From: Fragum whitleyi
Taxonomy: Eukaryota; Mollusca; Bivalvia; Cardiida; Cardiidae
DNA: 64,000 bases
Direction of reading: 5' to 3'
Assembly (NCBI GenBank): GCA_948146395.1
Contig: OX411559.1
Span: 25,312,010 to 25,376,009, forward strand
Below the pieces are notes generated by a model. That model was given only the letters and a program-made list of their open reading frames with translations. It was not told the DNA's origin and ran no database searches. The position numbers and the translations under genes were made by a program. Of this stretch, positions 1,715 through 62,609 are shown piece by piece. The number at the start of each line of letters is the position of its first letter. The stretch's first letter is position 1.

Positions 1715-2056
1715 TTATAATTGAAAATCATTAAGCAAAAAATGAAAACTATTTTTTTCAAAACAGAAGCAAATTTCTAATCGGACTACTTTGTGAGGAA
1801 GCTTGCAAAATAGCTGGATACTTAGAATTGTTTTCATTTGGAAATACATGTAAAACCAACTTTTCTGCCAATCAGAATGCACGAAGCTTAGTTTATACTA
1901 ATTTATTTTAGTTCGATTGCGACGATTATAGAATCGCTCTCGAACGCTCAATCCTGATGTTTTCACGTCCCCGAGAGAGAGGCAGTGGTTTAAACCCACT
2001 GCTACCCATTTTTACAGCTGGGTGAACTGCACGAAGCTTGATGAACAGTTTTTTTT

Positions 2057-2476
2057 CTTTAATGCTTTTCGGTGATTTATCGAGAAATAACGGTAGATTA
2101 TCACTTGATAAACTCACCGCAAAAGCAGGGAAATTATCAAATACTTATACCCTGCTTTTGTGCATTTCATTCTATCTGACGTCATCTATGCGGGGCGAAA
2201 TAAGTGACGTCACAATGAACGTTGCATAGCAATCACGCGCAAAATGACGCGCTTTATGAAAATATGTCCTATAAATTTCACATTTTGTCTCATTTTTGCA
2301 TTAAAGAAATAGAATAATCGTTTGTTTTTCGATTAAGATCGATTAATATTTCATTTCGTGAAAAACAAAAGCTATATCTTCACTCGTGGCTCCGCCACTC
2401 GTGTAAATATAGCTTTTGTTGTTCACTCAATGCAATATAAATCGATCTTACACTGAAACAAACGATTATCCTCTAT
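2057..2476 (+). mobile_element. bipartite foldback MITE, family A, copy 1
   Basis: The body (2057-2306) is bounded by the inverted repeat CTTTAATGC / GCATTAAAG. A foldback (about 2308-2476) follows directly. Its inner end reads ATAGAATAATCG and its outer end CGATTATCCTCTAT. The tip at about 2391-2402 reads TC-GTGGC-TCC-GCCAC-TC. The body carries two perfect TGACGTCA palindromes (2177-2184 and 2205-2212). Nearly the same sequence recurs at 14058-14476 and, reversed, at 18708-19125. The frame 2038-2229 belongs to this repeat and is not a gene. Confidence 0.8.
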
Positions 2477-14057: not shown

Positions 14058-14476
14058 CTTTAAAGCTTTTCGGTGGTTTACCGAGAAATAACGGTAGATT
14101 ATCTATTGATAATCTCGCCACAAAAGCAGTGAAATTATCAAAAACTTATACCATGCTTTTGTGTATTTCATCCTATCTGACGTCATCTATGCGGGGCGAA
14201 ATAAGTGACGTCACAACGAACGTTGCATAGCAATCACGTGCAAAATGACGCGCTTTACGAAAATATGTCCTAGAAATTTCACATTTTGTCTCATTTTTGC
14301 ATAAAAGAAAAAGAATAATCGTTTGTTTTTCGATTAAGATCGATTAATATTTCATTTCGTGAACAACAAAAGCTATATTTTCACTCGTGGCTCCGCAACT
14401 CGTGAAAATATAGCTTTTGTTGTTCACTCAATGAAATATAAATCGATTTACACTCAAACAAACGATTATCCTCTAT
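14058..14476 (+). mobile_element. bipartite foldback MITE, family A, copy 2
   Basis: Collinear with the copy at 2057-2476: body with two TGACGTCA sites, then a foldback ending CGATTATCCTCTAT. Here the tip has one change (GTGGC-TCC-GCAAC). Confidence 0.8.
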
Positions 14477-16826: not shown

Positions 16827-16921
16827 AAAAATAAACTTGTTTGAGCAGAGCCCCCCTTTTTAGGTCTTCGTCGTTCCAGACTACTCATACTCAATTTACA
16901 AGGGAAGGTTAAAATACCAAC

Positions 16922-17021: not shown

Positions 17022-17391
17022 ATAGAGGATATTGAATGAGTGGTCATTGAATACTGAATTTATTAAACGAGTCATCTATATATTTTTAGATGACGAGTTT
17101 AATAAATTCTGTATTTTATGAGCACAAATTTTATATTCTGTTTATAATATGACCCTAATTTTTGCGAAAAATCGTCAAAATTCTTGAATTTCAACGTTTC
17201 AATTTTCCGCGAAACTTATAACGTCGTTTAAAAATGACGTCACAAAGCATAGATTATGACGTCATTTTCGTGGTTACAATATAGCGTTGCTATTCGCGCT
17301 GAGCTCATTTGCATAGTGTAATAACACCCGTGTGATATCAATAATATCCAACGGGATTATTTCACTCCGGCAACGTCGGTCATATTATAAA
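17022..17391 (-). mobile_element. bipartite foldback MITE, family C, copy 3 (reversed, tip deleted)
   Basis: It begins ATAGAGGATATTGAATGAG and ends CGTCGGTCATATTATAA. The two foldback arms are joined by a short AT sequence: the GGC-NNN-GCC tip present in the other C copies has been lost. It contains TGACGTCA at about 17234 and a second one near 17259. Confidence 0.7.
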
Positions 17392-18707: not shown

Positions 18708-19125
18708 ATAGAGGATAATCGTTTGTTTCAGTGTAAGATCGATTGATATTTCATTGAGTGAACAACAAAAGCTATATTTTCACGAGTGGCGGAGCCACGA
18801 GTGAAAATATAGCTTCTGTTGTTCACGAATGAAATATAAATCGATCTTACACGAAAAACAAATGATTATTCTATTTCTTTAATGCAAAAATGAGACAAAA
18901 AGTGAAATTTCTATGACATATTTCCATAAAGCGCGTCATTTTGCGCGTGATTGCTATGCAACGTTAATTGTGACGTCACTTATTTCGCCCCGCATAGATG
19001 ACGTCAGTTGGATGAAATGCAGAAAAGCAGTGTTTAATTTTTTTATAATTTCACTGCTTTTGCGGTGAGATTATCAAGTGATAATCTACCGTTATTTCTC
19101 GATAAACAATCGAAAAGCATTAAAG
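18708..19125 (-). mobile_element. bipartite foldback MITE, family A, copy 3 (reversed)
   Basis: The outer foldback end is ATAGAGGATAATCG. The tip reads GAGTGGCGGAGCCACGAG. The inner end is ATTATTCTATTT, followed by the body bounded by CTTTAATGC (18887-18895) and GCATTAAAG (19117-19125). Two TGACGTCA sites are present. It lies in intron 1 of the galectin-like gene. A C-run is at 18324-18352. Confidence 0.8.
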
Positions 19126-19536
19126 AATGGTCAGTATTCTGTGTTACTATTCAACTGGCAGGGCGTGGTTTAGCACTGACCTAATTTTGCCAGTTTACTT
19201 TTCAATATTTTGGAATCTTTCAAAGATGACTCCGCCATTATCGTTAATGCGTGCAAATAACTGTACCCTAACCCCAAAAAGCATTTACGTGTTCGGGGAA
19301 AGTAAACACATTTTATAGTTTGGTTACCAAAGCCTCGTAACTTCACCTTATAAAAGCTGAAGTTACAAAGCTTTGGTTATCAACCTATGATTAATGGCTT
19401 CAAGTTTAATATGTCGAATATCAAAAGAATGAAGTAATTGTAAATGAAAGCTCATTTACCTTAACCTTAAATGCAACGACCCGTTACTTAGGATCCACCC
19501 TGCCAGGGCAATAATCATGGATTATATAAGCAACTT

Positions 19537-20939: not shown

Positions 20940-21256
20940 TTATCTTATAACTATACAAGTATCCGTATGATAACAACCCGTATGATATTTTTTATGATAT
21001 CACATAGTTATTTTTAGAACAATAATATCATACAGTTATTTTTAGAAACTAGCATTTAAGTTAGAAACATCGACTAAAACAAGACAAAAAGAGGTTATAA
21101 GATAAATATAATACGTACTAAGTGTATTGTATGAAAAAATATCTAACTCGGTTGTGAGAATTGGTAATTGTCTCGGCAGAGCCTCGACAATGATCAATTC
21201 TCCCAACCTCGTTAGATATTTTTTTCCATACAAAACACTAAGTACGTATTATATAT
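20940..21256 (+). mobile_element. bipartite foldback MITE, family B, copy 1
   Basis: The body (20940-21105) is bounded by TTATCTTATAAC and GTTATAAGATAA. The foldback (21107-21254) runs from TATAATACGTACTAAGTG to its complement. The tip reads TC-GGC-AGA-GCC-TC (21171-21183). Four further copies are at 24531, 26193, 43655 and 61951. Frames in this interval are by-products of the palindrome. Confidence 0.8.
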
Positions 21257-21278
21257 ATATCATTAAAAGAAAAGAAGT

Positions 21279-23241: not shown

Positions 23242-24530
23242 TTATGTGTTAGCACATGCAAGTTTTTTATGTTTATTCACATATGTCTGTATGTATGCGT
23301 ATGCATATGATAGTATTTTTCTTTGGAATAATTTATTGCTTGTTTGTTTTGCAAGGTATGCTTGTACGTTTGTATAGTTTTATGCATTAATGACATTACT
23401 TTCTGCTTGCTTTTATATGTCAACAAATATATCACACTTTTGCGTTTCTACATTCATTTTTTCTAGATACTATTGATTTTCAAGTTTTTTGTCCAACTGA
23501 TTAATTTTACGCAGTTACCAGAAAACAATCTCCTATAAAAACCTATCATTGTAATACAAGATCAATTATAATTCATTTCTGCTCTGAAGTGTGTATTTTT
23601 ACGCGCTTTCTAGGAACTAGAAAAAGACGTGTTAGCAAATATATGAAAAGAGAATCTTACTTGTAAAAAAGGCTTTTATATTTCGATGATATATTGGTTT
23701 GAGCAAACAATCTGATTCCCGACTCTCAAGTTTAATCTGTTAAAAAATGTGTAATTCTTCATAGTTTATTTTAATTTCAATTCTAACCACATTAAGATAA
23801 AAAAAATTGTAAACAAAAAAACCAAAAACATAATCATAGATTCTCTTTGAAACTGCGGTATATAGTTACAAGATAACACGCATTTCCAAATGCTGCACCT
23901 TTCATTGAAAAAAAAAAGATTGTGTATCCAAATCTCGACATTTTACACAATTTCTGATAAAAGCTGAGACACCCCCCCATAAGAGCGTAACGCAGTTATG
24001 AACAATTTGAAACTAATCAAAATAGCTCAACTGAATTCACATCCAATAAACTACGAAATTATGAGAAAGTTAATCTAGACAGTCTGAGTTTTCTGTCGAA
24101 GGTTTGTTGCCGTGATCGTAGCATAAACGTGAGGGAAATTGTTTAACCTTTTTCTCTAAGAGATGTCTTTGTCGGTTCTTTCCAGTAGTTTAAACACAAT
24201 CGTGTTTTTATGAAAGTTGTAAACCGTAGCTAACTGATTAGCGACGTAAATTCATTGCAGCTTCCGTTTTGGGAAACTGTATGTTGCTCCACTATGATTA
24301 CAGTGCAAACAAAGTTTAACCTACCGCGGTAAGGAATTTCTGTATGGTTGGGTTCAATAAAACGTCAAAATTGCAATTAAAGCATTACACTAATCACCTA
24401 AAAGCGCTCTTGATCGGTTAAAAAACGAAAAGAATAAAAAAAAGAAACTTCGAAATCGTTCAATACGATCAGTAATAAATATTTCATTTTTAAATAGATC
24501 GAATTATTCCACGATTTCAGTGTAGAAATA
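23242..24530. other. no gene seen
   Basis: AT-rich intergenic sequence without a recognisable feature. Confidence 0.4.
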
Positions 24531-24844
24531 TATAATACGTGCTTAGTGTTTTGTATGAGAAAAAATATCTAACGAGGTTGGAAGAATTGATCATTGTCGA
24601 GGCTCTACCGAGACAATTATCAATTCCCACAGCCGAGATAGATATTTTTCATACAATACACTTAGTACGTATTATATTTATCTTATAACCTCTTTCTGTC
24701 TTGTTTTCGTCGATGTTTCTAACTGAAATGCAAGTTTCTTAAAATGACTGCATGATATTTATTGTTCTAAAAATAACTATGTGATATCATAAAAAATATC
24801 ATACGGGTTGTTATCACACATATATTTGTATTGTTATAAGATAA
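24531..24844 (-). mobile_element. bipartite foldback MITE, family B, copy 2 (reversed)
   Basis: Foldback first (TATAATACGTGCTTAGTG...), tip GA-GGC-TCT-ACC-GA, then the body from GGTTATAAGATAA-type to GTTATAAGATAA (24833-24844). Confidence 0.78.
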
Positions 24845-25298
24845 TGTAGAATATCGTAGATGGGAAGTGCAATAAAATCGATAAGTTCATCCACTTGGAC
24901 GAAATAAGCGATATTGTTTTACCTCGCCTAAATAATATTAAAAACTTGTCCCCATTTATTAAATTCATTTCAAAATTATGCCAAAATCATTCACACTGTC
25001 AATTTTACGATATTCTAACTGTATTTATCCCGATGTCCAGAATTCGATACAAATAACATTTGAATTTCCATACCGACACCGCCACCCGTCTTACAAGTTG
25101 ATTGTAGCTTAGTAAATGATTCAAGCATTCCCTTAGCGGTTTCAATTATGTGCTTTTGTAAACGGATTATGAAACATTCATGTAGAACGCTCAAGTCTGT
25201 AACGAGTTAATATTATCTATAGAAGATAAAACGTCGGGCTTAATGGATTAACAGATGAAAATTTAATGGACATACGAGTTAAAGACAAATAGAAAAAG

Positions 25299-25715
25299 TA
25301 TTATAGTATGACCTAGGTGGCTGGAGTGAAATAAACCCGTTGAATATTTTTGATATTACACGGGTGTTATTACACTAGTGGAATAACTATGCAAATGAGC
25401 TCAGAGCGAAAAGCAACATTATTTTGTAACCGCGAATATGGCGTCATAATCTATATTTTGTGACGTCATTTTTAAAGGGCGTTGTAAGTTTCGCAGAAAA
25501 ATGAAACGTTGAATTTCGAGAATTTTGACGATTTTTCGCTAATATTCGGGACATATTATAAACAGAATATAAAATTTGTGCTCATAAAATACAGAATTTA
25601 TTTAACTCGTCATCTGAAACAGATAAAAACTTGGCACAGCCTCGTTTTTATCTGTTTATAGATGACTCGTTTAATAAATTCGGTATTCGATGACCACTCA
25701 TTCAATATCCTCTAT
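25299..25715 (+). mobile_element. bipartite foldback MITE, family C, copy 1
   Basis: Body from TTATAGTATGACCTAGG to GGGACATATTATAAAC. It contains the ACACGGGTGTTATTACAC and TGCAAATGAGCTC phrases and a TGACGTCA at about 25461. The foldback ends TTCAATATCCTCTAT. The tip reads TT-GGC-ACA-GCC-TC. Confidence 0.78.
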
Positions 25716-26192: not shown

Positions 26193-26467
26193 TTATCTTA
26201 TAATTATACAAATATCCGTGTGATAACATCCCTTTACATAATATCACATGGCTATTTTTAGAACAATGACACAATGCGATTCTTTTAAAAATATCGACGA
26301 AAACAAGGCAAATAGATGTTTTAAGATAAATGTATTACGCATGAAAAAAATATTCTAACTCGATTGTGGGAATCGATTATTGTCTCGCCAGAGCCTCGAC
26401 AACTACGAATTCCCCCAACCTAGTGAGATAAAAAAAATCAAACAAAACACTAAGTGCGTATTGTATA
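26193..26467 (+). mobile_element. bipartite foldback MITE, family B, copy 3 (degenerate)
   Basis: Body start TTATCTTATAATTATAC, foldback centred near 26393. The tip is altered to TC-GCC-AGA-GCC-TC, so the stem is broken. Arms are more diverged than in the other B copies. Confidence 0.65.
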
Positions 26468-26992
26468 TATATATGTATTATTCGAAAAAAATGAGCACTG
26501 TTATATGAATTGTTATGAATAAGTAGAACTGATGATTTCCACATGCTAGTATAGAAAATCGGAAAAATGCAATCTAAGGATGGTTATAACGCTTATAATA
26601 ACTTATAATAAAGTTCAAACAGTGTTTTATTTCAGAATTATTGTCTTAAACCCAAGCGCTCTCGGAACATAAAATTTCGTAATCAGGTTTCTTTACGATC
26701 TGAATTTTAAAATTGGCCTACATGTCATCGCTTGCCAACCAATGTAAAGATGATAATGATAAGAGATATTACCGTTCTTCAATATGGGTTCTTTACAAAC
26801 TTTATTGCAAAAAGGTTGGCATGCAAACAAATCACTGGTCTGTTAACGTTGGTCAAAGAATGCTGAGTGTTACTGATTTTCTGATACGAGTAATCGATGT
26901 GACCTACATAGAAGTCGCTTGTTCCTCAAAGCTTTTTGTCCGGACGTAAAATGACCTAAAATAGCGTATGTATCTAAATTAAATGTATTAGA

Positions 26993-42899: not shown

Positions 42900-43241
42900 T
42901 GTCCCCCGCCATTTTCGGAGACAGATGGGTGTAAAACTTTGCGAATATTTGTCGGTCGGAAGGTCGGTCAGTCGGTAGACAATTCCTAGTCCGGATGATA
43001 GCTCAAGACATAACTGACACGCGGTCACCAAGGTTGAAGATATTCCCGATATATTCATTAAAATTCAAGGTCATTGGCAGATAGGCTAAATATACGTAAA
43101 TACATAAGCCCGTATATATACTTAAAAGACAATTGACCTAGGGTCACCAAAATAGTTGAAAGTCACATCCAGTTTTTGACGAACCCTTTTGTTTTGAGAG
43201 AAATCCATTAAAGATAAAGGCCACTTGGAGACCTTACTATA
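42900..43241. repeat. tandem repeat (family Q), left part
   Basis: Two units with GACCTAGGGTCACCAAAATA, 'tatatatacttaaaag' and 'gagagaaatccattaaag', headed by a GGTCGGTCAGTCGGT minisatellite (42953-42977). The array continues at 44487-44541 and 55651-55980, having been split by the mariner and D insertions. Confidence 0.6.
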
Positions 43242-44486
43242 CGAGGGGGTATCAAAAAGTTCTGAGACAATTGCAATATCTTTTGTATCATCCAAAAGAT
43301 TTTGATGAAATTGTCAGTAATTATTCGTGTGGATGTGAGTGCTAATTATACAAACATGCAACCAAATATGACAACGCGTCTGGTAAGGAACCGTCGTCAT
43401 GGAAACCGAACAATGCGCTTTTTGGGACACTTAAAGTTTTAAACTAGCTATTGAGAATATTTCCACATAAAACGCGCAATTCACAAGTGACTAACAAGAT
43501 TCTTTTTGTTTTGAAATAAGGATTGAAAGGACAATTAGTGTGCTTGCAACCATGAGGTTTACTAAAAGGACTCGAAGCTGGAAGAGTTCTAATCAACAAA
43601 GACGACGTCCTATTTCCGGAAAGAATGTAACGTCGGGGTACATGATAAGGTATATATATAATACGTACTTAGTGTATTATATGAAAAAAAATATTTTACG
43701 AGGTTAGGAGAATTGATCATTGTCGAGGCTCTGCCGAGACAATTATCAATTATCACAACCTCGTAAGATATTTTTTTTCATACAATACACTTAGTACGTA
43801 TTATATTTATCTTATAACCTATGTTTATCTTGTTTTCATCGGTGTTTCTAAATGAAATCGAGTTTCCAAAAATAACTAACAATTTAACATTGGTCTAAAA
43901 ATAACCATGTGATATCATAAAAAATATCATACGGGATGTTATCATACGGATATATGTATAGTTATAAGATGATATTACAACTGATATGGGCTATTCTGGG
44001 GTTGTTTTATTAAAAACTTATCGAAGATTGATAACTGTGTTCCCCCTGCTTGGAATTTTTACTGCGTTTTGAGTGTAAATGAAATTGTCTATTGTAGATG
44101 TTATCGCAATAGTCAAACGTCCGTCTTTTAACGAGTTTTATTTGAAAAAAAAGTTGTATGTATTTGTGAAGATGTGCACTTACCTTTTGGAAAGATTTAA
44201 TTGGTGGGATTTGATAGGAGTTCACAGTTAATAAAATATAAAAACAGTGCTGACAAAAGTAATCAAGAGTGCTTCTGACGTCCATGACGTCTCCATTTTG
44301 CCCCGAGACGCCGCACCCACCTTAACTCAAATTGGCATTGAATTGAGTGTATTCATAGTTTTCTATTGAAACTTGATATAGTCTTTGTCAGAGGGAGTAC
44401 AATTGAACTCATGAAAATTTCAAAGTCGTCGGACATCTACGCTGGAAAATATGATTGGAGTCTCAAAACTTTTTGATAGCCCCTCG
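43242..44486. mobile_element. mariner-type element, coding region destroyed
   Basis: Termini CGAGGGGGTATCAAAAAGTT and the complement of CGAGGGGCTATCAAAAAGTT at 44467-44486 are typical mariner inverted repeats. TA flanks both sides (43240-43241 and 44487-44488). The length of 1245 bp is near the family norm, but about 320 bp of this is a nested family B MITE and no transposase frame survives. It is inactive. Confidence 0.88.
43655..43972 (-). mobile_element. bipartite foldback MITE, family B, copy 4 (reversed), nested in mariner
   Basis: The foldback begins TATAATACGTACTTAGTG. The tip reads GA-GGC-TCT-GCC-GA (perfect). The body is bounded by CTTATAACC and GTTATAAGAT. Its presence inside the mariner dates B transposition after the mariner insertion. 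Confidence 0.8.
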
Positions 44487-44543
44487 TATATACTTAAAAG
44501 CCTCTGGATTATAACGCGATTTGTTATAGACCTAGGGTTACAT

Positions 44544-44697
44544 AAATAGAGAATAATAGGTTAGTGTCTTAGATGGGTCAAGTTTATCGGGCGAGGCGTA
44601 GGAATTTATTAGGTGAGCCGCAGGCGAACCTAATAAATTCCGAAGCCGAGCCCGATAAACTTGACCCATCTAAGACACTAACCTATTATTCTATTTA
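44544..44697. repeat. foldback of the D element
   Basis: Arms of about 47 bp (AATAGAGAATAATAGGTTAG inward and its complement) are almost identical. The inner part continues in imperfect pairing to a tip reading GA-GCC-GCA-GGC-GA (44613-44625). On the other strand this is the same TC-GCC-TGC-GGC-TC form as in families A, B and C. The outer end (AATAGAGAATAAT) resembles the family A and C ends (ATAGAGGATAAT and ATAGAGGATATT). Confidence 0.8.
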
Positions 44698-44980
44698 TCC
44701 TGTTACCATCAATTGGTAGCGGAAAATAAATGGGTGTAATAAAAAAATCCAATTTTAAATTCCGCGCCGAAAGAGGTGGGCGGAGTTTGGTTGGTGTCAA
44801 TATCTCAACCGACAGAAGGGTCACAAAAATAGTTCCTAATTAAAACCAAGATTTCGACTCAAAATACCAATAAATGGAGCTACGACGTGTTCAAAATTAA
44901 TTGAAAGATAAAATTAAAGTTTTTCTGAGCATTTGAAGTGCCTCAAACTGTGTATGTTTGTCTTCGCTTCGGAAATACAC

Positions 44981-45226
44981 TGTTGTGTTTTTTTAATCAC
45001 ACAACACACATGGCACAATGCATGTGCAATGTTAAAAACAGGTATGTTAAAAACAAGTGATAAGTTTTAATACTTACCTTTTGGTTCTCCGCAGAGCAAC
45101 TCAAAACACGTCTGTTATCATTCACATCATGGCTAGAAGAGACTGGTGCACGTGTTTTTCGTGCGTTTTCCCGCCCTTTGTCACACTCCAGTGGATGTGA
45201 CGGAAGTGGTTTTAAAAGTCACAACA
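44981..45226 (-). repeat. LTR (3' LTR of the minus-strand retrotransposon)
   Basis: 246 bp, TG...CA ends (TGTTGTG to CACAACA). About 96% identical by eye to 51661-51904. Next to it, on the element strand, is the purine-rich GGCATGGGAGGAA (45227-45239), a likely polypurine tract. ACAC (44977-44980) matches ACAC at 51905-51908 as a 4-bp target duplication. Confidence 0.88.
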
Positions 45227-45403
45227 TTCCTCCCATGCCTAAAAATGGGCTTTCTTTCCATATGCTAAGTTTCGGTCCTAGCAAATAAGGTTTCTAGGTA
45301 ATATTGGAGTGCATGTTTTTAAGTTACAGGAATGAGCCAAATCTCCTGCAACTATTTACTGGAAAGCGATTCTATAAGTGCATGTGATAGTGAATAATTT
45401 ATT

Positions 45404-45590
45404 CCAGTTGTAACTGGAATGTCAAATATATTTGTTCCAGATAAGCTGGAACACCACATGAATCTATTTTTTCCTTTGTTATCAGGAACTTCATGTGAAA
45501 ACAACCCCTGATGATCAGAAGTTTTCAAAAGGAATGTTCCAGAGCTAGCTGGAACCCCCTCTAGCTTAGTGGTTCCAAAGTTACTTGGAA
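45404..45590. repeat. four short TTCCAG-n-CTGGAA palindromes
   Basis: TTCCAGTTGTAACTGGAA (about 45404), GTTCCAGATAAGCTGGAAC (about 45436), GTTCCAGAGCTAGCTGGAAC (about 45536) and GTTCCAAAGTTACTTGGAAC (about 45571). The arms are conserved while the loops differ. Confidence 0.85.
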
Positions 45591-46313
45591 CTATTTTAGT
45601 TAACATTATGCAGCTCAAGGGAGTTCAAGGTTATATTTCCTAAAAATACTCTAGGAATTTCTCAAGAAATATGAGACCTTAGTCAGAACTATTTTTCTAA
45701 AAATTTAGATTTTGCTTTATGGAAATTATAGTTTTGGCTTGAAGGAAATGGGTATTTATGCCACTTTTGAAATCGTTCAGTTTTGCATCATCTGGAGTCT
45801 GATTCAAAGAGTCTAGATATAATTTTATTAAGCTGATTTTACATGAAAGGGTAACAACACATTGAGTTGGGCAGAGTAATAAACTATTGAAGTAATAAAT
45901 AGACTTACCTCAGCAACCTAAGATTTCTGTTATTATTGGATATATAGACTAAAGGGCATGAAATCACAAGAATAAGGACCTTAACTTTTATTGATTTCAG
46001 CTTAAAAGGAAATATTTTTCTCCAAAAAGTAAATTCATTCCTATTCCGTAATAATAATGTTTTCTTTTTAAGCTATCTATGATCCATAGAATTAGTTTAG
46101 CCTCAATCCAGAGAATTAACAGGGAAATTTACTAAAATTTATTAAGGGTTTCAATGATTTTAAGATTGTAAGTTAATAAATGCTATTAGTGTTAAGATCA
46201 AAATATTATTGACAAAATGATAAAATCAAATCAATTTTGTTGCTGAGGAGAGTCAATTTTACTTGCCGAAATTGCTTGACAATTTGACAATTGCATTTTC
46301 TATGAGATCAATT

Positions 46314-47321
46314 TTAGTCTCTAAAGTTTGGATTTTGCCTTCCAAACTTGTCTTTTTCGCTAGAGGGGTCCTTATTAATTGGGGACTTAGTTATAAGCTT
46401 AACACAAGGCCTTTTTGAGTCTGACCTGGTAGATACCATGGGAACGGCCATGATAGCACAGTAATCATCACTATCTACCTCTGAAGAGCACATATCAAAA
46501 TGGACATTTTGCGATTCAGCCCCATCATGAAATCTGAAGGGCCTAGGTCTGCCAAAGATGATTTCTCTATTGAGCTGGCAATTCCTTACCAGCTCAATGG
46601 CCTGTTCAATGTTATTTGGCCCAGCATTAGCAGCATATGCTGCTGCCTCCTTATCATGGCAACCCTGGCAGAACCTTTTCAACGCCATCCCATATATATG
46701 CTCATTGGTCATATGCTTGAATGCCTCTGATGCAAGCTCAGTAACCCTCTGTCCCCATTCTGGAAGGGTTCGGCTTTTGTTTAGCCCCTTGAAATTCCAG
46801 AATTAGATTTTCAGTGATGTCACTGAAATCAAAGCGTCTCTTAAATCTTACAGCTAATCGCTCAAATGTGATGTTCGGCTCTTGATCAATCAAAAGTGAA
46901 TAGAAATCATCTACCTTTCCTTCAAAGAGCCCACATAATCTCCCTTTTTTCAGAGGATCAATTGCATTCTTCCCAAAAGATATTTAAAGTTAGTATAAAA
47001 TGAATGCCACTTTCCCTCCCAATCAAATGAGATAGGAATAGGGACACTCCTTGGTGCCTTTGGTTTTGCCCCTTTGTCATTGCTCATACACATATACGGA
47101 CAACCATCATCACTCTCTGACCCACTATTCATCATAGGATGTAATTGTGTAGTGGGCTTCAATGTTTTATTGTAAGAGTCTTCAATGGGCTGAGTTTCCC
47201 GCTGAGCTAGAAAATTTCCTGTTGGTTCCAGATCTATATGCTGGAACGTCATGAGACGCTTCAGGTTCCTGTTTAACAGAATGGAACCTTTCATCACCTT
47301 GAATCTTATTATAGGAATCAA
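46314..47321 (-). pseudogene. gag remnant of the LTR retrotransposon, frameshifted
   Basis: Two open blocks on the minus strand carry Gag-like sequence. The upstream block (47321-46950) contains SFDWEGKWHSFYTNFKYLLG, the W-x-x-F capsid entry. The downstream block (46712-46314) contains MALKRFCQGCHDKEAAAYAA and a following NIEQAIELVR helix, both typical of molluscan Gypsy-type Gag. The roughly 240 bp between them are also Gag-like but lie in other frames, so at least two frameshifts are needed, one near 46965 and one in a G run near 46785. No zinc knuckle follows; the tail is Ser/Lys-rich. The protein is not functional as written. Confidence 0.7.
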
Positions 47322-47764
47322 ACATTTTGTTAAGGGAATGCAAGTCCATCCCAGCTTGTGACTAACTGGGTACCATCCCAGATGTAGGACAGACTTTTAT
47401 TCATGTTCGTAACCATCACAAAAACCTGATTCATTTGAATATGTTTCAAGTTTCCGAGGTTTTGTTGTTTTTCTTATAAGATTTGACAATTTAAATTGGG
47501 AATTTGTACTTATCTATTGAGAGTCAATTTTATTTTACGCCTAGCTGGATTACTATTAATATCACAGGAACTCATAAGGTTTGAAGTTAGGTTCTACACT
47601 GGTTTATGCTAATGGGATATTTATAGATATTTGCTAGTTCCGATTACTAGATAAATAAGATATTTTGAAGGTTTTAATTTTTTTTTTTAAAAGCAGAGTA
47701 CATGTTTTGTGATTTATTTCCAAAAGCCTGAATCCTACAATACTTTCGTGTTTCATAATTACGG

Positions 47765-48022
47765 TTTCCAGTTGCCTGGAAATTACGATATTCATGGGTG
47801 ATGTGGTCTTCCAGGTGCCTGGAAGATTTTCTCTAGAATTGAATTGGATAATTTCCAGTTTTCTGGAAATTGATAATTTCCAGTTTTCTGGAAATTGATA
47901 TTGACTGAAATATGCTGGTGTTGGTTACCATTTCCAGTTGCCTGGAAATTTGTATCTCAGATTTTCTTTATACTAACTGTATTGTATGCGGATAGGTCTC
48001 CATTTCCAGTTGCCAGGAAAAG
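47765..48022. repeat. six short TTTCCAG-NNNN-CTGGAAA palindromes
   Basis: They occur at about 47765, 47808, 47848, 47875, 47929 and 47999 with loops TTGC, GTGC, TTTT, TTTT, TTGC and a variant. Further members are TTTCCAGATGGCTGGAAA at about 48825, and ATTTCCATAAGAATGGAAAT (48661) and TTTTTCCATTAAGATGGAAA (48503) with changed stems. They lie 5' of gag on the element strand. Confidence 0.85.
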
Positions 48023-48984
48023 AGTACAGACCAAGGGAAAAACCGATTAATTGATCATTAGTATTTTTTAGTGGAAATGGATCTAGATCAGAAAAGACTC
48101 ACAATCATTCCGTCCATTGACATTTTGAGATGAAAGGTTTAAGGTTTTTAGGCTATGGCTCTAGTTTTTGTTTGATTTTGACTACCAATATCAGTAGGTT
48201 CTCTAGAGTTAATTTGACTATGAATTGTTCAGCTAGTTTAAGATATGACTGAGATGGACTTGTAGTTCAGTTTACCAGCATTTATTTCATAATTCCTGAT
48301 AACAGGTATTGTCCAGTTTGTTCAACAAATTCACGACATCAACAGCTAGGGTTTTTCCCTGCTCATCGCAAAATTGCATATGCCACGCCCCGAACATGCT
48401 TCAGTATTGATTTAGAGCAATTACAGAATTGTAGCATTTACAAACACTGTAACCTAACATTGAGTGATATAGGCCAGATATGCCTTAAAGATAAATCATC
48501 TTTTTTCCATTAAGATGGAAAAATTTATTATTGAAATTTTGATATAGATGGAAACTGAAGAAATTGTGAATTACAATGTATATGGTGGTAATTTATTTTT
48601 TGAAAGAGGGACTGGACTAAGCGTGAACTAGAGCAGTTGAGAGTGAAGCAATGCGCGTCTTATTTCCATAAGAATGGAAATGTGCTACGGACGCATCAAT
48701 AGGCGAGTTCTGTTTCAGTGCTACTAAATGTCTTGTTACATTTTCTGACAATATGTTAGATGGATTTCTGTGTGATGGGAAATCTTTTGAAATACTTTCA
48801 ACGCCAGAAGAGAGCACTGTTTGGTTTCCAGATGGCTGGAAATAACCGGGGACTATGGACTGGACGACCCTGATCCATCTGTGAGGGATCATGGTCCCAA
48901 CTTTCTTCGCCTACTTCCCTCATATCTTAACTATCAAATACCTGTTTCACAGTCAGTTGAGCAAATGTTAATGTTTGTAACAGG

Positions 48985-49450
48985 GATATATCGGTCACCT
49001 GTCTTTGGAAAATGCGAGTAATGTTAACCATGCTTGAACAGGGATATATTGGTCACCTGCACATTTATGGAGATGAAATTAAAGTTATCAATATTTGGAA
49101 CAGGGATATATCGGTCACCTGCACCTCTTTGATAATGGAATTAATGCTACTAATTTTGAAACAGAGATATATCGGTCACCTGCACATTTATGGCTTTGAA
49201 ATTAATATTATCAATATTCGGAATAGGGATATATCAGTCACCTACACCTTTATGATAATTTCATTTATAAATTTCATTAATGTTTGGGAAAGGGAAATAG
49301 CAGTCACCTGCACCTTTATGATAATTTCATTTATAAATTTCATTAATGTTTGGGAAAGGGAAATAGCAGTCACCTGCACCTTTATGATAATTTCATTTAT
49401 AAATTTCATTAATGTTTGGGAAAGGGAAATAGAAGTCACCTGCACCTGAA
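48985..49450. repeat. minisatellite, ~7.5 units of 60-66 bp
   Basis: Each unit carries GGGATATATCGGTCACCTGC or a near variant (cores near 48993, 49051, 49113, 49173, 49235, 49301, 49366 and 49432). The last three units are almost identical. Stray single cores lie at about 49557, 50395 and 50780. The 145-codon plus frame and the 67-codon minus frame here arise because the unit length is near a multiple of 3. Confidence 0.9.
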
Positions 49451-51660
49451 AGTTATGTTTTTTATTGAAAAGAATTACTTAATTTCTTGTGCATGGATAA
49501 CTAACATGCAAAAGAATATGGTAAGCCTCATGTAATGACCCCCTCCTAGCATAGGGATATAGCATGTCACCTACGGCAGAACAATTGGTCACACATGTAA
49601 ACTTTGGTTTGAAATTTATCTGTTTTGAAGGATAGTACCGATTTTCCTTTTGTTGTATATACCAACCACCCAAACCTGGTGTTACAGCTCAACTGACCCC
49701 AGATCCAGAGTCTACACCCCCTTCTGTTACAGAAGGACTTGCAGGACCAACTTTTTGGCCAGCTAAGGCAGCTGTCTTTATTTGTGGCTATAGTTGATGA
49801 GTATGAGGGATCATTATTCAATTCCAGGGACTGGAATAGAATATGAAATAACTAACAATATTCTACTAGACTAGTTATTTCAGATGATGACTTGACTGAA
49901 ATGAATTGTGATTTTGAAGTCTGGTCACTACATGCAACCGCCCTTCAAATTCAATGGTATGGAAGAAGACATGTAATCAAAGTAATCTGTAAAAGAATGA
50001 ATACAATTAATATCCAATATCATCAACAGTGATATGCTGTTTCACAGAATCAGTGGTATTATTAATTTATCCTAAATTTATGTTAATTAAAATGTTTACT
50101 TATTGCAAAGATCAGATTCTTAGGTATGAGATGTCATGAGTTTCAAACCTCAACAATGACATACAGAGAATATGAATAATTATAACTAAATCAAGAGGAG
50201 TTATTTAACCCTTGACATATAGAAGAAGTTATTTGACACTCTTAAAGTCATAAGCACTAGAATTAAATTGATAGTAATCCAAGTTGTTGAATGAAACATA
50301 TATGGATACAGTGTTAAGACTCCAAAAGTCACATATATGAAGGAATCCCATTGATGATTATGTAACTGAAATTATTCATCAGTCATTGGAGCAAGGATAA
50401 AGCGGTCACCTGCACCAGTAAGTAATTAACATGAATGAAATTGATTGTTTAATTCTCAGATAGTTTAGGTGGGAAATATTTACTTCGAAAGGAAATGTGT
50501 TAATGATAGGATTATTTAATAAAATATTAAGTTTGCAAAAGATGTTAACAGCTTTTAAACTCTGACAATAATATCTACAAGAATATGAGTAATTATTGCT
50601 TATTCATATGCTATAATTTAATTGATAAGTATTAAAGTCGGTGAAAGAAATTATTAATCCCCTGCCATATGAATAAAGTGTAAGAGATTGCCAGTCTCCA
50701 ACTATCATACACGCAAGAATTTGATTATTAAGTCATTGCAAATTGTAAGCTGAAATGAATGACCAATTCATGTAGCATGGATAATGTAGTCACATGTACA
50801 AGAACACAATCAGCCATTTATGAAATCGACTAATTATGAATATTGCAATGTCAAACAAAATGCGTGACCTCACAATTAACAGGCAGGATAATGTAAAACT
50901 TTCACCCTGTCAGGTTTATTGTCTCCTGACAAATGAAATCCTTAGAAACTCTATCAAACAAGTCATAATATTGCCATGAAGAAGGGATATAATTGCAACA
51001 GACTAATTCAATGTTAACTTCCTTCCCCCTCACCAATAAATGAAATGAAATGCTCTTCTTGAAAACAGACGAAATAATTGCCCTACGTAATTCACTTTCA
51101 ATGGATTTTAAATGAAAACTTGCTGAATTTTAAATATAACCCTGTTAATTTACTTGGTTAATCAACAAATCGTGAATGAAAAGATAGAGGGATTGCCAAA
51201 GAGTTCAAAGATGGCGGACCGGAAGCGAGCACCTGCCAATATACTTGACCTAATTTTACATTTTTTTCTTTTTTGTTCTCTAAGAAAATTTGTAAATATT
51301 CTAAATGATCCGTGGCGCTCCAAAGAAATGTTTATAGATGGAATTATAAAACAAATAAATATTAATTGAATTAGAGAAGAAATAAATATGAACTGGGGTA
51401 TCGGCAGCGGGTACCTGCTAGGCTCCGTCATAGTATCATTTGAATTTCAGGGGGTAAATAACTGGATTATAAATTGTAGGATAAATGATGCAATCAGCTT
51501 GAATGATCAAGCAATTGCATTGCTCATAACTGTAATAATTGCTGCATGGCTAAATGGGAATATAGGCGACATGTCAAGCCAATAACTGGCCGATAATTAA
51601 AGTCGAATTCCCATATAAATGCAGCTAAATGCTCCGCACAAGCCGCTCAGGCAGCGCCAA

Positions 51661-51904
51661 TGTTGTGTTTTTTAATCACACAACACACATGGCACAATGC
51701 ATGTGCAATGATAAAAACAGGTTATGTTAAAAACAAGTAAGAAGGTAATACTTACCTTTTGGTTCTCCGCAGAGCAACTCAAAGTACGTCTGTATTCATT
51801 CACATCATGGCTAGAAGAGACTGGTGCACGTGTTTTTCGTGCGTTTTCCCGCCCTTTGTCACACTCCAGTGGATGTGACGGAAGTGGTTTTAAAAGTCAC
51901 AACA
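51661..51904 (-). repeat. LTR (5' LTR of the minus-strand retrotransposon)
   Basis: 244 bp, same ends as 44981-45226. On the element strand it contains AACCAAAAG|GTAAGTATTA, a strong 5' splice-donor sequence, also present in the other LTR, so LTR-initiated transcripts could be spliced. It starts TGTTGTGACTTTTAAAACCA on the element strand. Confidence 0.88.
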
Positions 51905-52381
51905 ACACAATTGTGTAAACAAACGTTTATGTCCGCAACAAGACATACAAGACACGGATAATATTCGTCCAATATTAGGAATTATAGATATCTTTCTACA
52001 CACTTGAAGTAAAATTGTGTTACAACATTAACTTTGTGAGGATACAGGGACCCTTCCGAATTGATCTGCGTTGATATGACGATTTTGGAAATAAATGAAG
52101 GGGTGAAATTGATCAACGGTTCAACAAGGATTTATTCAAACATAAACACTGTGAGTACACATCTTGAATTTGTAGCATTTGTAATGAAGAAAAACACATA
52201 TTATTCAAATGTGGTAAATTATCAGCATCTGTCAATTTTTCAGTATTTAGAAACTGCATATTGTGCTGTTTAGGCAAGCATTTTTGTACATCATTGTGCT
52301 TGAGTCACAGCAAGATCTTGGATGGAGTGTGTGGAAATATGCCATTTTCCTCTTGTCCCTGAACAAGTAAAAGATATTTTT

Positions 52382-52403
52382 CTACTTGTCCATGGACAAG
52401 TAG
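52382..52403. repeat. perfect 22-bp palindrome
   Basis: CTACTTGTCCA followed by its exact complement. Nearby lie further CTTGTC phrases (52352, 52424, 52448). It lies in the D element, 3' of the recombinase gene. Confidence 0.8.
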
Positions 52404-53126
52404 TTTAGAAAAAAATTCTTGTCTGCAAGTGAAAAGCCTGTTTTAGACAAGTCAGGCGGTGGAATTTCACACCCCTGAACAGAAGATTTTAGGATTACTG
52501 GGACCAAAAGACTTCAGTTGCATTCTACATATGAACATGAAATTGTTGAGTTGTTTTTTTTTTAATTCTCCACAATTGACCTTCCTTTTTGACTGTTTGA
52601 AATTATTTTTTAAATGATATAAGAATAGAATGATGAAGAAATAATTTTATGTCAAAAATAACTTGAATTCATGAGAATTCAATTTTTCTGCTCTAATGAA
52701 TTGATTACTTTTCATATGAGCAAAAGATTTGGATTCTCATGATCAGTATTTTTTTACTTAAAATATTACAAAAAGTTGATTTGTTAGTGACTAAATGAAA
52801 GAAACCTTAAAAAGACTGTTCAGGCTGCACTGGATCTGCCAAGGCTTTTTTGATTCAGAGAAAATTTGTTCCTTTTTTGAGTGTGTTTAAAGATTATGGC
52901 TCAAAAAAAGAGTTCTTTGAACTGTCACTTAAAATTGGACTATCTTGGAAGATAGGGTGTTAGTCTTGACCCTGGTCGGACTGCATGACTTTTCTTAAAT
53001 TATGAATTTTCTGAATCTGGAATGATTATTCCCAAGCCCCCTCTTAAAGTAATGCATCATGTCTTGCTATCCTCAAGAATTCATAAACATTAACAAATGC
53101 TTAATATCTTAAAAATGATTTTTTTT
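52404..53126. other. 3' flank of the recombinase gene inside the D element; no gene seen
   Basis: AT-rich. No clear AATAAA was found on the minus strand just past the stop codon. Confidence 0.35.
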
Positions 53127-53943
53127 TCAATTTTTCATGTAGACATTGAAATTTTGAATGTTCAAAATTGCCCCTGAAAACAAAGAATTCATTTGAGTAT
53201 TTACATTAATTGTGTCATTCTGTAAGCTCATTGAGGACAGATTTCCTGAATTTTGGACACACCTTAGAGAATCTGACATATTCATTTGTGGGTTTGCAGT
53301 ATTATTATTTTGAAAATTTAAGTTTTCTTCATTTTCTGAGGTGCCAGAATTGTTTCCATTGCTAGTTTGATTACTGCAGTCAGTAAATGAAATACTAGGT
53401 GTTGCCTGTGGTCTAGAACAAAGAATTCTTGAACATTCTTTTTGTTTTTGTTCTGAAATTTCAGAATAGTTTAAAACAGATTGAATGTTCTTGTGGCCGC
53501 TTATCTGCATTATATCTGTTGGTGCTATTCCTGAATCACGCAATTTTTGGACCATATGTTTTCTAGTTGAATGATTTGTGATTCTTTTTTGTGATTCTAG
53601 ACCAGCATCAGCAGCCATAGATTTCATTAGTGACCCAAGTTTTTTTTCCCCAATTGCCATTTTCATGAACCATACATTTTCTATATGTTTCTGAGATCCA
53701 GTTCGGGGAGCTAAATAAAAAGGATCATTTGGACCACAAAAATCTGTAGGGCGTTTTTTTGCATATATTTTGTAAAAGTTCACAGGACATCTTTCTATGT
53801 GTTCTGGAGTGGCAAAAATCTTTGGATTGATGGGTCTTATGTTGTTCATGCTCTCTCCTGTCCTGGTTTTTGTCTGCCTTTCAGCGCAATATTCCAAATA
53901 TTGAATGCCATCTGCCCCTGTTCTCAATTGAACATCTCCCCAT
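53127..53943 (-). CDS. Crypton/KIAA1958-type tyrosine recombinase, exon 2 (catalytic domain)
   Basis: The exon follows the acceptor ccattattttcacag. Spliced to exon 1 (AG|A makes Arg244) it reads LRWGDVQL across the junction, the expected family sequence. It encodes residues 245-515. Visible active-site residues are Lys269 in ERQTKTRTG, the HxxR motif TNHSTRKH (His368, Arg371), His394 in QISGHKN and the nucleophile Tyr403 in VLNYSE. After about residue 415 a tail rich in Asn, Gln and Ser follows (100 residues, no domain seen). Together with Arg235 in exon 1 the catalytic set is complete. The spliced length of 516 codons including stop is exactly in frame. The frame upstream of 53943 up to 54008 is intron. 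Confidence 0.85.
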
Positions 53944-54561
53944 CTGTGAAAATAATGGGTAAAAAGGACAAAATAAATGATAATTATCCTTTTCTTATGA
54001 TTATACATTTTGACTTATTTGATTTCTAATATTTGCAATAGCCATTTTGGATACTTAAGCCTGTTACTACAGCCTCATTTAGTTGTAGTCACAAGGTTTT
54101 GGTCATCTAAAAAAGATAGGTCAAGAGTGTAGAATCTAATGAAATTGATATTTTTTATTCAAATATGATCCCTTTTTATTTACAAAGGAAATTGTCACAA
54201 ATGAAAGGAAATATAGCATTTTCATTCACAATGAATTTTGAGTTCTCCCTTGTGAAAATATGATTTTAATTTCACTACAATTGGTATTTAATACTTGGTG
54301 ATAGACACCCTTGTAGTTTTAAATGGCAAAACGCCTCGGTACAATGTATCCAGGAGATCTGAGTTCAAATCTCAGCAGGGGACAAATTATTACCAGTATT
54401 TAGATTATATCAGTTGTGTGAAATCTATATATATTCTTCATCGTTTATAGAACAAAACTGTCTAACTATGAATAGGAACCCACTTTTTTGGGGCAGAACT
54501 TTTTTAGGAGAGACATTTTTATATAGATCTTAAATTCATTCTAATGATAAAATCAACACAC
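53944..54561 (-). other. 618-bp intron of the recombinase gene
   Basis: Donor CTGAG|GTGTGTTG at 54561 and acceptor TTTTCACAG|ATGGGG at 53944 (minus strand). The first base of exon 2 completes an Arg codon. The intron contains a tRNA-like sequence on the opposite strand (54307-54383). Confidence 0.82.
54307..54383 (+). other. tRNA-like sequence (pseudo-tRNA or SINE head)
   Basis: A good T arm (CTGAG-TTCAAAT-CTCAG at 54359-54375) doubles as a Pol III B box. A D-arm-like hairpin (GTTT...AAAC, 54316-54332) lies at the right distance. The anticodon stem (CCTCG / CCAGG) has a mismatch and an 11-base loop, and the acceptor (ACCCTTG / CAGGGGA) pairs poorly. It is not a functional tRNA as read. Confidence 0.4.
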
Positions 54562-55292
54562 CTCAGATTATAATTTTCTTTGGTACCTCGTAGGCCGAAC
54601 ATTAAACAATTGTTCAGCCACAAGACATTGATGAGACTTTTTCCATCTTTACTGCCAACAATCCCTTTTTCATACAACACATTGATCTCATTGTCAGTAA
54701 GTGGGCTAGCTCTGTTAGGTTTATTTCCCTTTCCCTGCTTTTTCAAAGATTTCTGTTTTGCAGATAGGGCATCCCTTGTAAGTTGGAATTCATGGGAAGT
54801 TGAGTTCATAATTTGGTGTGGATATCTCATCCTCTTTAACTTTCTATCAATGCTAGAGATGATATTTCTCAGTGAAGATGGTTCATACTCTTGACCATCT
54901 GCCTTTCTTATTGACAAGATGAAATTGGCCAAATATTGATCAAGCTTCTCCGGGTCCATTTTTGTTATTTCCTCACTTTCATTTTTTGATTTGAGAAAGT
55001 TTTCAAATTTTTTGACATCTGACATCGTTTTCTTAATTGTAGATTTGTTAGATTGTTCATGTATGAAGCTGTGAACCTCTGTATCTGTCATGTCAAGAAA
55101 ATGACAGGCGCCGCTAGTGCCAGCCACTGGAACCTCGTTTTTCTCTTCAATTTGAGGGATTACCTCAAAGTCAACGTCCTCATTGAATAAAGAAGGGTCA
55201 ATCCCTACTAGTTCTCCAAATTCCTCAGCGCTCATCTCTTTAACAGTCGGGGATTCTTCCCAGATTAAATTAAAATTTGCGTTTTCCTTCAT
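54562..55292 (-). CDS. Crypton/KIAA1958-type tyrosine recombinase, exon 1 (N-terminal and core-binding domain)
   Basis: Encodes residues 1-243 plus two bases of codon 244 of a 515-residue tyrosine recombinase. The first ~70 residues are acidic (EEFGELVGIDPSLFNEDVDF). About residues 75-165 form an all-helical core-binding segment (SDVKKFENFLKSKNE, DQYLANFILSIRK, SLRNIISSIDRKLKR). The linker QKSLKKQGKGNKP is basic. The exon ends with box I of the catalytic domain, FGLRGTKENYNL, with catalytic Arg235. This arrangement is that of the DUF3504 proteins (KIAA1958, ZMYM, QRICH1) derived from Crypton transposons; these enzymes recombine DNA through a covalent Tyr intermediate. The start is the first ATG of the frame; a GGA repeat and TGACGT (55335-55340) lie upstream. 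It sits in the D element and could alternatively be a domesticated host gene. Confidence 0.85.
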
Positions 55293-55650
55293 TGTTTGTT
55301 TGTAAACATTGGCCAGGAGGAGGAGGAGGAGCTATGACGTAAATATTGCAGACGACATAATTCACGTGTTATTTCCACATTTAATACAATTCGGGATAAA
55401 ATAAAGATTTAAGTGATAAAACGATAACATATAGGCTTTTCATGTCTTTTTTTTTTATTTCTAAATTGTTCTCGATCGGGTCGAAAGCGATATCCTAGTA
55501 TCTTAATTTGAGCCAATCGTTGACGATGTTTATAGGTCAAAAGTAGTTCCGGTCAATATGCAAATGAGAAAGGTCAGATAGCAGGTAACCGTATAAAGCT
55601 AAGTTTATACGGCACCCCTTTATACGGTCAATATTTCAGTATGTGACAGG
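55293..55650 (-). promoter_or_regulatory. 5' flank of the recombinase gene, right end of the D element
   Basis: From the start codon outward: a (GGA)n tract (55314-55330), TGACGT at 55335-55340, CACGTG at 55364-55369, then TATGCAAATGAG (55557-55568, also a phrase of family C bodies), a hairpin formed by CCGTATAAAG and its partners (about 55590-55628), and the terminus GTGACAGG. No TATA box is certain. Confidence 0.4.
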
Positions 55651-55980
55651 ATAAATTGCACAGACATGCACCCTCGGGTTTAGCTGATCCCTATTGATTT
55701 TAGAGAAATCCATCGAAGGTCAAATTTACTTGGTGACCTTGAACCTCATGGTCTATGAATAAAAACTTGCTTGGTTGAAATATTCAGACAGGGTTGATCT
55801 TCGGTATCCAAATTGACAATACTTATTACATGTTTATCATCCCTACTATCTGTTTGATTTGAAGTTAATTTGTCAAAGGTCCATGGGATTTTGTTGGTTG
55901 TCATGACCTTTGGTTAGTGGTGATTTACATGTTGATGTACAGAACAGAAAAATAGACACATCATATTGAAAATTATCTCC
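55651..55980. repeat. tandem repeat (family Q), right part
   Basis: It continues the array of 42900-43241 with 'gattttagagaaatccatcg', 'aaggtcaaatttacttggtg' and 'gaccttgaacctcatgg'. The break point lies at the D insertion. Confidence 0.55.
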
Positions 55981-57944: not shown

Positions 57945-58360
57945 GTTTATAATATGACCTACGTCGCGGGAGTGAAATAAACCCGTTGAATATTTTTGAT
58001 AATACACGGGTGATATTACACTAGTAGAATAACTATGCAAATGAGCTCAGAACGAAAAGCGACGCTATTTTGTAACCGAGAAAATGACGTCATAATCTAT
58101 GTTTTTTGACATCATTTTTAAACGGCGTTATAAGTTTCGGGGAAAATTGTAACGTTGAATTTCAATAATTTTGACGATTTTTCGCTAAAATTTGGGTCAT
58201 ATTATAAACAAAATATAAAATTTGTGCTAATAAAATACAGAATTTATTAAACTCGTCATTTAAAACAGATAAAAACTCGGCGAAGCCTCGTTTTTATCTG
58301 TTTAAGATGACTCGTTTAATAAATTCAGTATTCAATGACCACTCATTCAATATCCTCTAT
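57945..58360 (+). mobile_element. bipartite foldback MITE, family C, copy 2
   Basis: The body is bounded by GTTTATAATATGACC and GGGTCATATTATAAAC. The foldback follows and ends TTCAATATCCTCTAT. The tip reads TC-GGC-GAA-GCC-TC. TGACGTCA is at 58085-58092 and a one-base variant at 58107-58114. This is the best-preserved copy of C. Confidence 0.82.
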
Positions 58361-61950: not shown

Positions 61951-62236
61951 TTATCTTATAACTATATACATATCCGTGTGATTACATCCCGTATGATATT
62001 TTTTATGATATCACATACGTATTTGTAAAACAATGATATAATGCGGTTATTTTTAGAAACTTGCTTTTCAGATAGAAACATCGAAGACAAATAAGACAGA
62101 TAGAGATAATGAGATAGATATAAAACGTACTTAAGGTTTTGTATGAAAAAATATCTAACTCGGTTGTGAGAATTGATATTTGTCTCGGCAGAGCCTCGAA
62201 AATTTTCAATTTTCCTAACCTCGTTAGATATTTTTT
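61951..62236 (+). mobile_element. bipartite foldback MITE, family B, copy 5 (end truncated)
   Basis: Body from TTATCTTATAACTATATAC; foldback with tip TC-GGC-AGA-GCC-TC (about 62188-62200). The outer arm stops at about 62236. Confidence 0.72.
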
Positions 62237-62609
62237 TATATATGTAGCCTGTTAGCTGTGGAGAAGACTGTTTTTAGCTATTTAAGAAGCTCATCTAAAT
62301 AACGACTTTGCATGCGTCTGTATATTCAAACTGTTACCTTTCGGTGATACAATGCTTATATTTTGCATGTAACTGTCTTTGTCGACAATTCGGATAAAGT
62401 CTTTCTCTTATGAAAAAAGTTGTCTCCGAAGGTGTAATAAAATGTGGCATGTTTAAATTGGTTAAAAAATTATCACCCTGGATGTGGGTGATTTTTTTCT
62501 TCAAAGATAGAAGCATCTGAATAACCGCAATAACAATTCGTCAATAATTCATTGTCGCACGATTACAGTGCTTACAGCACTTTTATTTTGGTTTATGTGT
62601 GTTCCACCT

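Follow-up and report, generated by a model that had tools for sequence, protein, structure and literature searches.

In a 64-kb stretch of the genome of the bivalve Fragum whitleyi (contig OX411559.1; the whole stretch of 64,000 nucleotides is called the window here), we analysed an element, F1, which carries a tyrosine recombinase gene and whose two ends can be joined into one long palindrome. Three non-coding families in the window, F2, F3 and F4, have the plan of F1 with different arm sequences. On balance, we consider it probable that the tyrosine recombinase of F1 moves this Crypton-like DNA transposon via a circle with a palindrome at its junction, and that F2–F4 are non-autonomous elements moved in trans. 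The kind of enzyme is already known; what appears to be new, as read from the DNA, is that the hairpin and the inverted ends form one split palindrome at the ends of an animal Crypton-like element. All DNA evidence was drawn from the window, where F1 is known as a single copy.

The recombinase element F1

An initial annotation of the window had described an insertion of about 11.1 kb (4.2 kb without a nested long terminal repeat (LTR) element) that splits a tandem repeat, begins with a 154-bp foldback, has a body bounded by inverted repeats and holds a two-exon tyrosine recombinase gene. The features of F1 and its surroundings are as follows.

43132..43235 (+): paralogous repeat unit that is free of the insertion, a diverged empty site; 1.3 kb upstream of F1
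44542..44547 (+): ATAAAT at the left boundary, common with 55651-55656; candidate 6-bp target/element overlap
44546..55654 (no strand assigned): whole mobile unit F1, 11,109 bp; ends placed by analogy with the F2 and F3 copy alignments; joined flanks align to the paralogous repeat unit
44546..44694 (+): left-end hairpin; the outer arm starts ATAGAGAATAAT and has two extra bases, the inner arm ends ATTATTCTAT
44695..44706 (+): inner-arm extension TTATCCTGTTAC, an uncut copy of the palindrome foot
44981..51904 (no strand assigned): nested LTR retroelement, a later insertion with no part in the mechanism
53127..53943 (-): exon 2 of the tyrosine recombinase gene; encodes the catalytic domain with H-x-x-R, H and Tyr; Pfam matches to DUF3504 and Phage_integrase exceed the cut-off
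54562..55292 (-): exon 1 of the tyrosine recombinase gene; encodes the N-terminal core-binding part; sub-threshold Pfam match to QRICH1
55643..55654 (+): right end GTGACAGGATAA; foot severed from the left-end palindrome, complementary at 11/12 positions to the inner extension
55651..55656 (+): ATAAAT at the right boundary

The size of the insertion held up, since F1 measures about 4,181 bp after subtraction of the nested LTR element and its 4-bp repeat. The foldback was recovered as 157 bp (44542-44698) that align with their own reverse complement over 159 columns at 88% identity (E 1e-52), with arms (44550-44619 and 44623-44692) that are 91% complementary. From the copy alignments of F2 and F3, the ends of F1 were placed at AA^ATAGAG.. 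on the left and ..ATAA^ on the right, give or take the ATAAAT common to both sides. The joined flanks of F1 matched 43132-43235 across the join (69% over 106 columns, E 1.7e-10), and a longer local alignment of them scored 51.4 versus at most 25.0 in 200 letter shuffles. As these alignments span the join, both the hairpin and the right end lie within the F1 insertion. What F1 splits is a diverged repeat copy; the tandem array proposed at the target was rejected, as Tandem Repeats Finder calls none at the site.

The inverted ends of the body, TATCCTGTTAC and GTGACAGGATA, are 12-14 bp long; one lies at the right end of F1 and the other 150 bp inside the left end. The only zero-mismatch matches to ATTTATCCTGTYAC in the 64 kb were ATTTATCCTGTTAC at 44693 and GTGACAGGATAAAT at 55643. 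Placing the right end GTGACAGGATAA directly before the left end ATAGAGAAT... rebuilds a palindrome of about 170 bp, one arm of which had been cut by the insertion. The pair is therefore better read as the halves of one palindrome than as ordinary terminal repeats: both proposed ends of the body exist, and they belong with the hairpin rather than forming a separate feature.

The recombinase gene starts at the ATG at 55292 on the minus strand, has a 618-bp GT-AG intron and encodes an intact protein of 515 aa with no stop in it. The catalytic set R235, K269, H368, R371, H394 and Y403 is complete, each residue at its previously proposed position. The protein matched PF12012 (DUF3504; 8.8e-14) and PF00589 (Phage_integrase; 1.5e-6) in Pfam. 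An alignment with 15 chosen relatives showed no variation at R235, K269, R371, H394 and Y403, and H368 was nearly invariant. When the window was searched in six frames with the recombinase profile, only the two exons of the F1 gene matched. The Pfam scan of four frames, including two of the nested LTR element, detected no mobility-enzyme family besides the recombinase. Outside the nested element and besides the gene, F1 contains two frames of at least 80 aa (53715-54029 and 54574-54894, plus strand), both antisense to the gene and outside the Pfam scan.

We found 140 homologues, and among the 120 listed, the named ones were mostly from bivalves and corals. A tree was built from 26 selected sequences, all of them database homologues with no named Crypton sequences among them; in it the window protein grouped with proteins of Mercenaria, Ruditapes and Mya (support 0.997), which makes a heterodont bivalve the likely source. 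An AlphaFold model of the Mya homologue (predicted local distance difference test score, pLDDT, 78.6) was compared with known structures: in Foldseek, QRICH1 was the top match by E-value and Cre the next, and by Z score Cre was the best (19.1; 291 residues, 3.4 A), followed by an archaeal Xer (16.3), QRICH1 (15.6), an integron integrase (13.5) and the Tn1549 integrase (12.5). The bivalve and coral relatives also have a conserved tail past the catalytic domain, with G501 nearly invariant in 16 sequences; this tail has low confidence in the model of the Mya homologue. Searches with the 16-protein alignment gave 2 pattern stretches in viral contigs and 57 in genome contigs, none of which was confirmed.

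Instead, the gene could belong to the host, as a domesticated or relic member of the KIAA1958/QRICH1 kind, and stand beside a foldback miniature inverted-repeat transposable element (MITE) by chance. Homologues named KIAA1958, QRICH1 or ZMYM2-like do occur among the matches listed, and the profile matched QRICH1 in the PDB (9hjt, E 1.6e-18). We regard this as highly improbable: all six catalytic residues are present in F1 and in 17 of the 26 aligned proteins (window protein and fragments counted), whereas DUF3504 host genes are without most of them according to the relevant passages of PMC3212892, and the gene lies inside an insertion bounded by the aligned empty repeat unit. The initial annotation had named single-copy host loci as the finding that would separate the gene from the element. 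In Mya arenaria, two further proteins are 90% and 95% identical to the best Mya match (gaps counted), the three being listed on contigs of 63.4 (best match), 64.4 and 56.3 Mb. These near-identical copies speak against a host gene and, at the level of sequence, seem to reflect recent mobility of the gene.

Other sequences were noted within F1. At 55589-55627, at most 70 bp from the right end, there are three copies of CCGTATAAA/TTTATACGG (one forward, two reversed), with one further exact copy in the window, at 7672; the copies near the right end are possible accessory binding sites. A weaker self-complementary stretch (72.6% over 124 columns) lies at 52644-52764, between the gene and the nested element. 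The LTRs of the nested element, TGTTGTG..CACAACA, are about 95% identical and are flanked by the 4-bp repeat ACAC on both sides; the element contains arrays of TTTCCAGTTGCCTGGAAA-type palindromes and 62-66-bp tandem repeats. It has frames on the minus strand that look gag-like, and the two minus-strand frames that were scanned matched no Pfam family.

The non-coding families and the split palindrome

Families F2–F4 comprise 11 copies in the window, two of them decayed, and the six-frame search with the recombinase profile gave no match in them. A self-complementarity scan of the window left 18 stretches after removal of those of low complexity: 11 in F1–F4 (one in F1, three in F2, three in F3 and four in F4), two that form another foldback family, F5, and five others (817, 3717, 5160, 19315 and 52644) that were left out of the foot comparison. 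F4-E was added by homology as the twelfth F1–F4 element. The non-coding copies are as follows.

2055..2476 (-): F2c, non-coding
14056..14476 (-): F2a, non-coding
17022..17390 (+): F3a, non-coding; hairpin tip shorter than in F3b and F3c
18708..19127 (+): F2b, non-coding, with the split-palindrome plan
20942..21262 (-): F4-B, non-coding
24524..24845 (+): F4-C, non-coding
25301..25715 (-): F3b, non-coding
26193..26472 (-): F4-E, non-coding; diverged
43645..43970 (+): F4-A, non-coding; ends TTATCTTATAAC / GTTATAAGAT
57947..58360 (-): F3c, non-coding
61951..62243 (-): F4-D, non-coding; left end decayed

The copies of F2 (3/3) and F3 (3/3) were aligned together with their flanks. Homology started at ATAGAGG, which is the outer edge of the hairpin, and its right limit was AAAGAA in all three F2 copies and TATAA in all three F3 copies. 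The right foot of F2 and F3 is the reverse complement of the sequence directly inside the hairpin, and therefore the outer termini are not inverted repeats of each other. In the fold analysis, for which the right ends of F2b and F2c were taken one base short, joining the right and left ends gave an unbroken palindrome, F3c included. The hairpin is 120-170 nt long in F1–F3 and present at one end only. The proposal of a distinct recombinase transposon with a hairpin end is thus sustained in that a long hairpin belongs to the mobile unit and the plan recurs in three families, and it needs amending in that hairpin and body are not two features.

These alignments bear on a simpler reading, in which an ordinary terminal-inverted-repeat transposon, made up of the body from TTATCCTGTTAC to GTGACAGGATAA, inserted beside a palindrome that was already there. 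The inverted ends of 12-14 bp would suit it. The hairpin is, however, inside the repeated unit in all six F2 and F3 copies, with homology running from its outer edge, and the flank homology of F1 begins outside the hairpin. We consider this reading extremely improbable and dropped it because the hairpin belongs to the repeated unit.

Pairing between the foot and the inner extension was then compared across families. The feet are GTGACAGGATAA in F1, AGCATTAAAGAA in F2, GTCATATTATAA in F3 and GTTATAAGATAA in F4. With the family 12-mers as typed for the comparison, each foot matched its own inner extension at 11/12, 11/12, 12/12 and 12/12 positions for F1–F4, versus 4-9/12 for the extensions of other families. 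As each foot matches the extension of its own family only, complementarity has been kept while the sequence differs. When the right foot was examined alone, only 0-11 of 193-199 controls, some of which were themselves family copies, did as well in seven elements.

The palindrome is split on the same side throughout F1–F3, F2 and F3 being the two non-coding families with sharp copy boundaries. In all seven copies (one of F1 and three each of F2 and F3), the split arm is the outer arm, which begins ATAGAG. This arm is two bases longer in all seven (AGAGGAT or AGAGAAT versus AGA-AT), and the extra bases fold as a two-base bulge near the cut. The pattern AWAGAGRATAWT, which was drawn from the copies after viewing them, occurs 8 times in the window versus 0.34 expected, and none of 100 shuffles reached 8; seven of the eight occurrences are outer arms, which stand for three families.

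Some related sequences accompany these families. The stretch at 38389-38788 (minus strand) is a decayed mosaic that resembles F2 in the outer hairpin arm and tip, and F3 (71%) in the inner arm, body and right end; its sequence suggests that two families were joined near the hairpin tip. A decayed F2-like hairpin lies at 19537-19704, and at 20707-20741 an F3-like right end stands alone, with no body to match it. The two F5 copies (1571-1885 and 16529-16831) are 70% identical. Three element patterns gave 0, 0 and 2 matches in viral contigs, and the two matched contigs (L001 and L002) share a short stretch with no hairpin visible by eye in 230-260 bases.

Target sites and movement of the elements

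No target-site duplication of 2-12 bp was present at any of the seven F1–F3 boundaries, with the right end of F3c placed one base late in this and the core-match analysis. Bases common to the target and the element core numbered 21 versus a null mean of 6.8, and at least 21 were reached in 5 of 20,000 draws, in a test for which the cut was placed after viewing the sites and whose null ignores A/T preference. At positions -4 to +1, 32 of 35 bases were A/T, versus 66% in the window, and a general A/T preference may account for part of the core match. The site ATAA^A was found in three of the seven, and the insertion dinucleotides were A^A in three (equal to T^T on the other strand), A^T in two and T^A in two. 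Fungal-type Cryptons are recognised by direct repeats of 4 or 6 bp at both ends; here F1 has ATAAAT, and the seven copies have 0-6 shared bases. The lack of duplication together with the core match is the expected trace of conservative recombination with a short matching core, unlike that of a DDE transposase.

The course of events that we infer for the F1 enzyme, the circle and the action in trans on F2–F4 is as follows. Excision would turn F1 into a circle in which the right end abuts the outer left end, giving the palindrome of about 170 bp. Along the circle would come the foot (GTGACAGG), the crossover core (ATAA^AT), the arm with the two-base bulge, the tip and then the mirror image. The recombinase would cut one arm only, at AA^ATAG, and the circle would be joined to A/T-rich target DNA with a tendency to match the core. 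After insertion, the right end would keep the short foot and the left end all other parts of the palindrome, with no repair duplication. F2–F4 would be non-autonomous elements of the F1 kind, mobilised in trans. Since the same arm is cut in all F1–F3 copies, a cue would be needed, and the two-base bulge is the one consistent asymmetry seen. The long hairpin may serve an end other than that of a recombination site.

Several results weigh against this account. In copies F2a and F3b the foot is mismatched at more positions than in the typed 12-mers, and with the right foot alone the test failed for both (145 of 197 and 131 of 191 controls as good); for F1, 3 of 23 random stretches scored as well as the right foot alone. 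The right-end pairing in folds was equalled by 2-13 of 60 random 20-mers, and stem differences between copies within a family were, by eye, mostly one-sided rather than compensatory. The two-base asymmetry is unreadable in F4, which has AT repeats at the cut, and F5 showed no split foot by eye when the right ends of its two copies were compared with the inner extension; F5 is perhaps another kind of element. The core match, besides the way in which the cut and null were chosen, is confined to the left side (3 of 20,000 draws), with no excess on the right (2,949 of 20,000).

Two further points of this kind would also suit a different agent, such as a DDE transposase, that moved F1–F4 while F1 merely carries a recombinase gene. 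The gene and the split-palindrome architecture coincide once only in the window, F2–F4 being without a recombinase match, and a foldback element might hold such a gene by accident. F4-C carries TGTAGAA (7 bp) as a direct repeat at its ends, as would fit a duplication; among 3,000 random flank pairs, 27 shared at least 7 bp. Foldback MITEs, moreover, are common. Such an enzyme would need outer termini that are inverted repeats of each other, which these elements are without, and the 0/7 for duplication in F1–F3 also disagrees with it. F1, the one putatively full-length member, encodes the recombinase, and no other enzyme was recognised in the scanned frames. We judge movement by another enzyme unlikely.

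F2–F4 might alternatively be non-autonomous rolling-circle elements of the Helentron/HINE type, with F1 a chimera that acquired a Crypton gene. As described in the relevant parts of PMC4067079 and PMC7492417, HINEs, which occur in oyster, resemble F2–F4 in being non-autonomous and in having subterminal inverted repeats, palindromes and no target-site duplication; the preference of Helentrons for TT would suit the three A^A sites. The same parts give palindromes of 5-10 bp near the 3' end and subterminal inverted repeats of 11-15 bp, versus the 120-170-nt hairpin of F1–F3, and an origin from Rep/helicase elements; the four remaining sites are A^T or T^A, and the four Pfam-scanned frames, two of them from the nested LTR element, had no Rep/helicase match. 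We hold a rolling-circle origin to be quite improbable.

Relation to known systems

By its enzyme, F1 is a Crypton of the animal kind, as judged from sequence. The recombinase is the sole mobility enzyme found in F1 by the profile search of the window and in the four Pfam-scanned frames, and it is a DUF3504-type tyrosine recombinase with the catalytic R-H-R-Y. In the passages of Kojima and Jurka (2011; PMC3212892) on these elements, animal Cryptons are known from cnidarians and a mollusc, and CryptonA and CryptonI, like F1, have a single DUF3504-related tyrosine recombinase; the non-autonomous derivatives and the proposed circle of Cryptons parallel F2–F4 and the F1 circle. The same passages report terminal repeats as not found in animal Cryptons, in the case of Rhodnius CryptonI from a comparison of 50 copies, whereas the end of F1 is a long palindrome split by insertion; this agrees with the initial statement that Cryptons are not described with such ends. 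The hard clam genome paper (PMC8905726) gives 9,809 and 13,654 Crypton-labelled copies in two columns whose headings lay outside the part seen, and that part leaves their ends undescribed. In the open PMC literature, to which the search was confined, none of the papers listed described split-palindrome ends in a eukaryotic element in its title or the opening of its abstract, and no later account of animal Crypton recombination sites was among them, which is no proof of absence; Repbase was outside the literature and element comparison.

Other systems share single traits with these elements. Foldback (FB/Mutator) elements have long inverted repeats at both ends and a target duplication of about 9 bp, unlike F1–F3 with the hairpin at one end only and 0/7 duplications. 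For DIRS/Ngaro elements, no reverse transcriptase was found in the four Pfam-scanned frames, a scan short of the whole element. To our knowledge, Tn916/Tn1549-type conjugative transposons have no long palindrome at the joint; they differ from F1 in their transfer genes, none of which was recognised in F1.

Linear insertion of an integron cassette splits a palindrome unequally, and the circle restores it. F1–F3 show a palindrome split between the ends with extra bases on one side, which is a formal likeness only. According to the relevant part of PMC3053210, recognition in integrons is influenced by the folding of attC and by the extra-helical bases of its folded bottom strand. Integrons, like F1, formally combine a tyrosine recombinase with a palindromic site that has unpaired extra bases on one side. 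Integrons differ in that the recombinase is encoded by a platform with attI and the cassettes are arrayed; F1 encodes the enzyme itself, no attI platform was seen, and the F1–F4 copies are dispersed on both strands of the window and not arrayed. By this analogy, it is conceivable, although we hold it doubtful, that an animal recombinase recognises a folded palindrome, guided by the bulge to one arm, as a eukaryotic counterpart of attC, and that F2–F4 are cassette-like passengers mobilised by hairpin structure and not by a common foot sequence.

If the split palindrome is the recombination site, it would provide a concrete substrate for the enzyme and a signature for finding complete elements, and it would be a source for part of the foldback MITEs of bivalves, of which there are 11 copies in 64 kb, two of them decayed. 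The attC-like reading, if true, would be a new kind of eukaryotic mechanism, and it would raise the question of whether strand choice directed by structure, as in integrons, had a second origin in animals.

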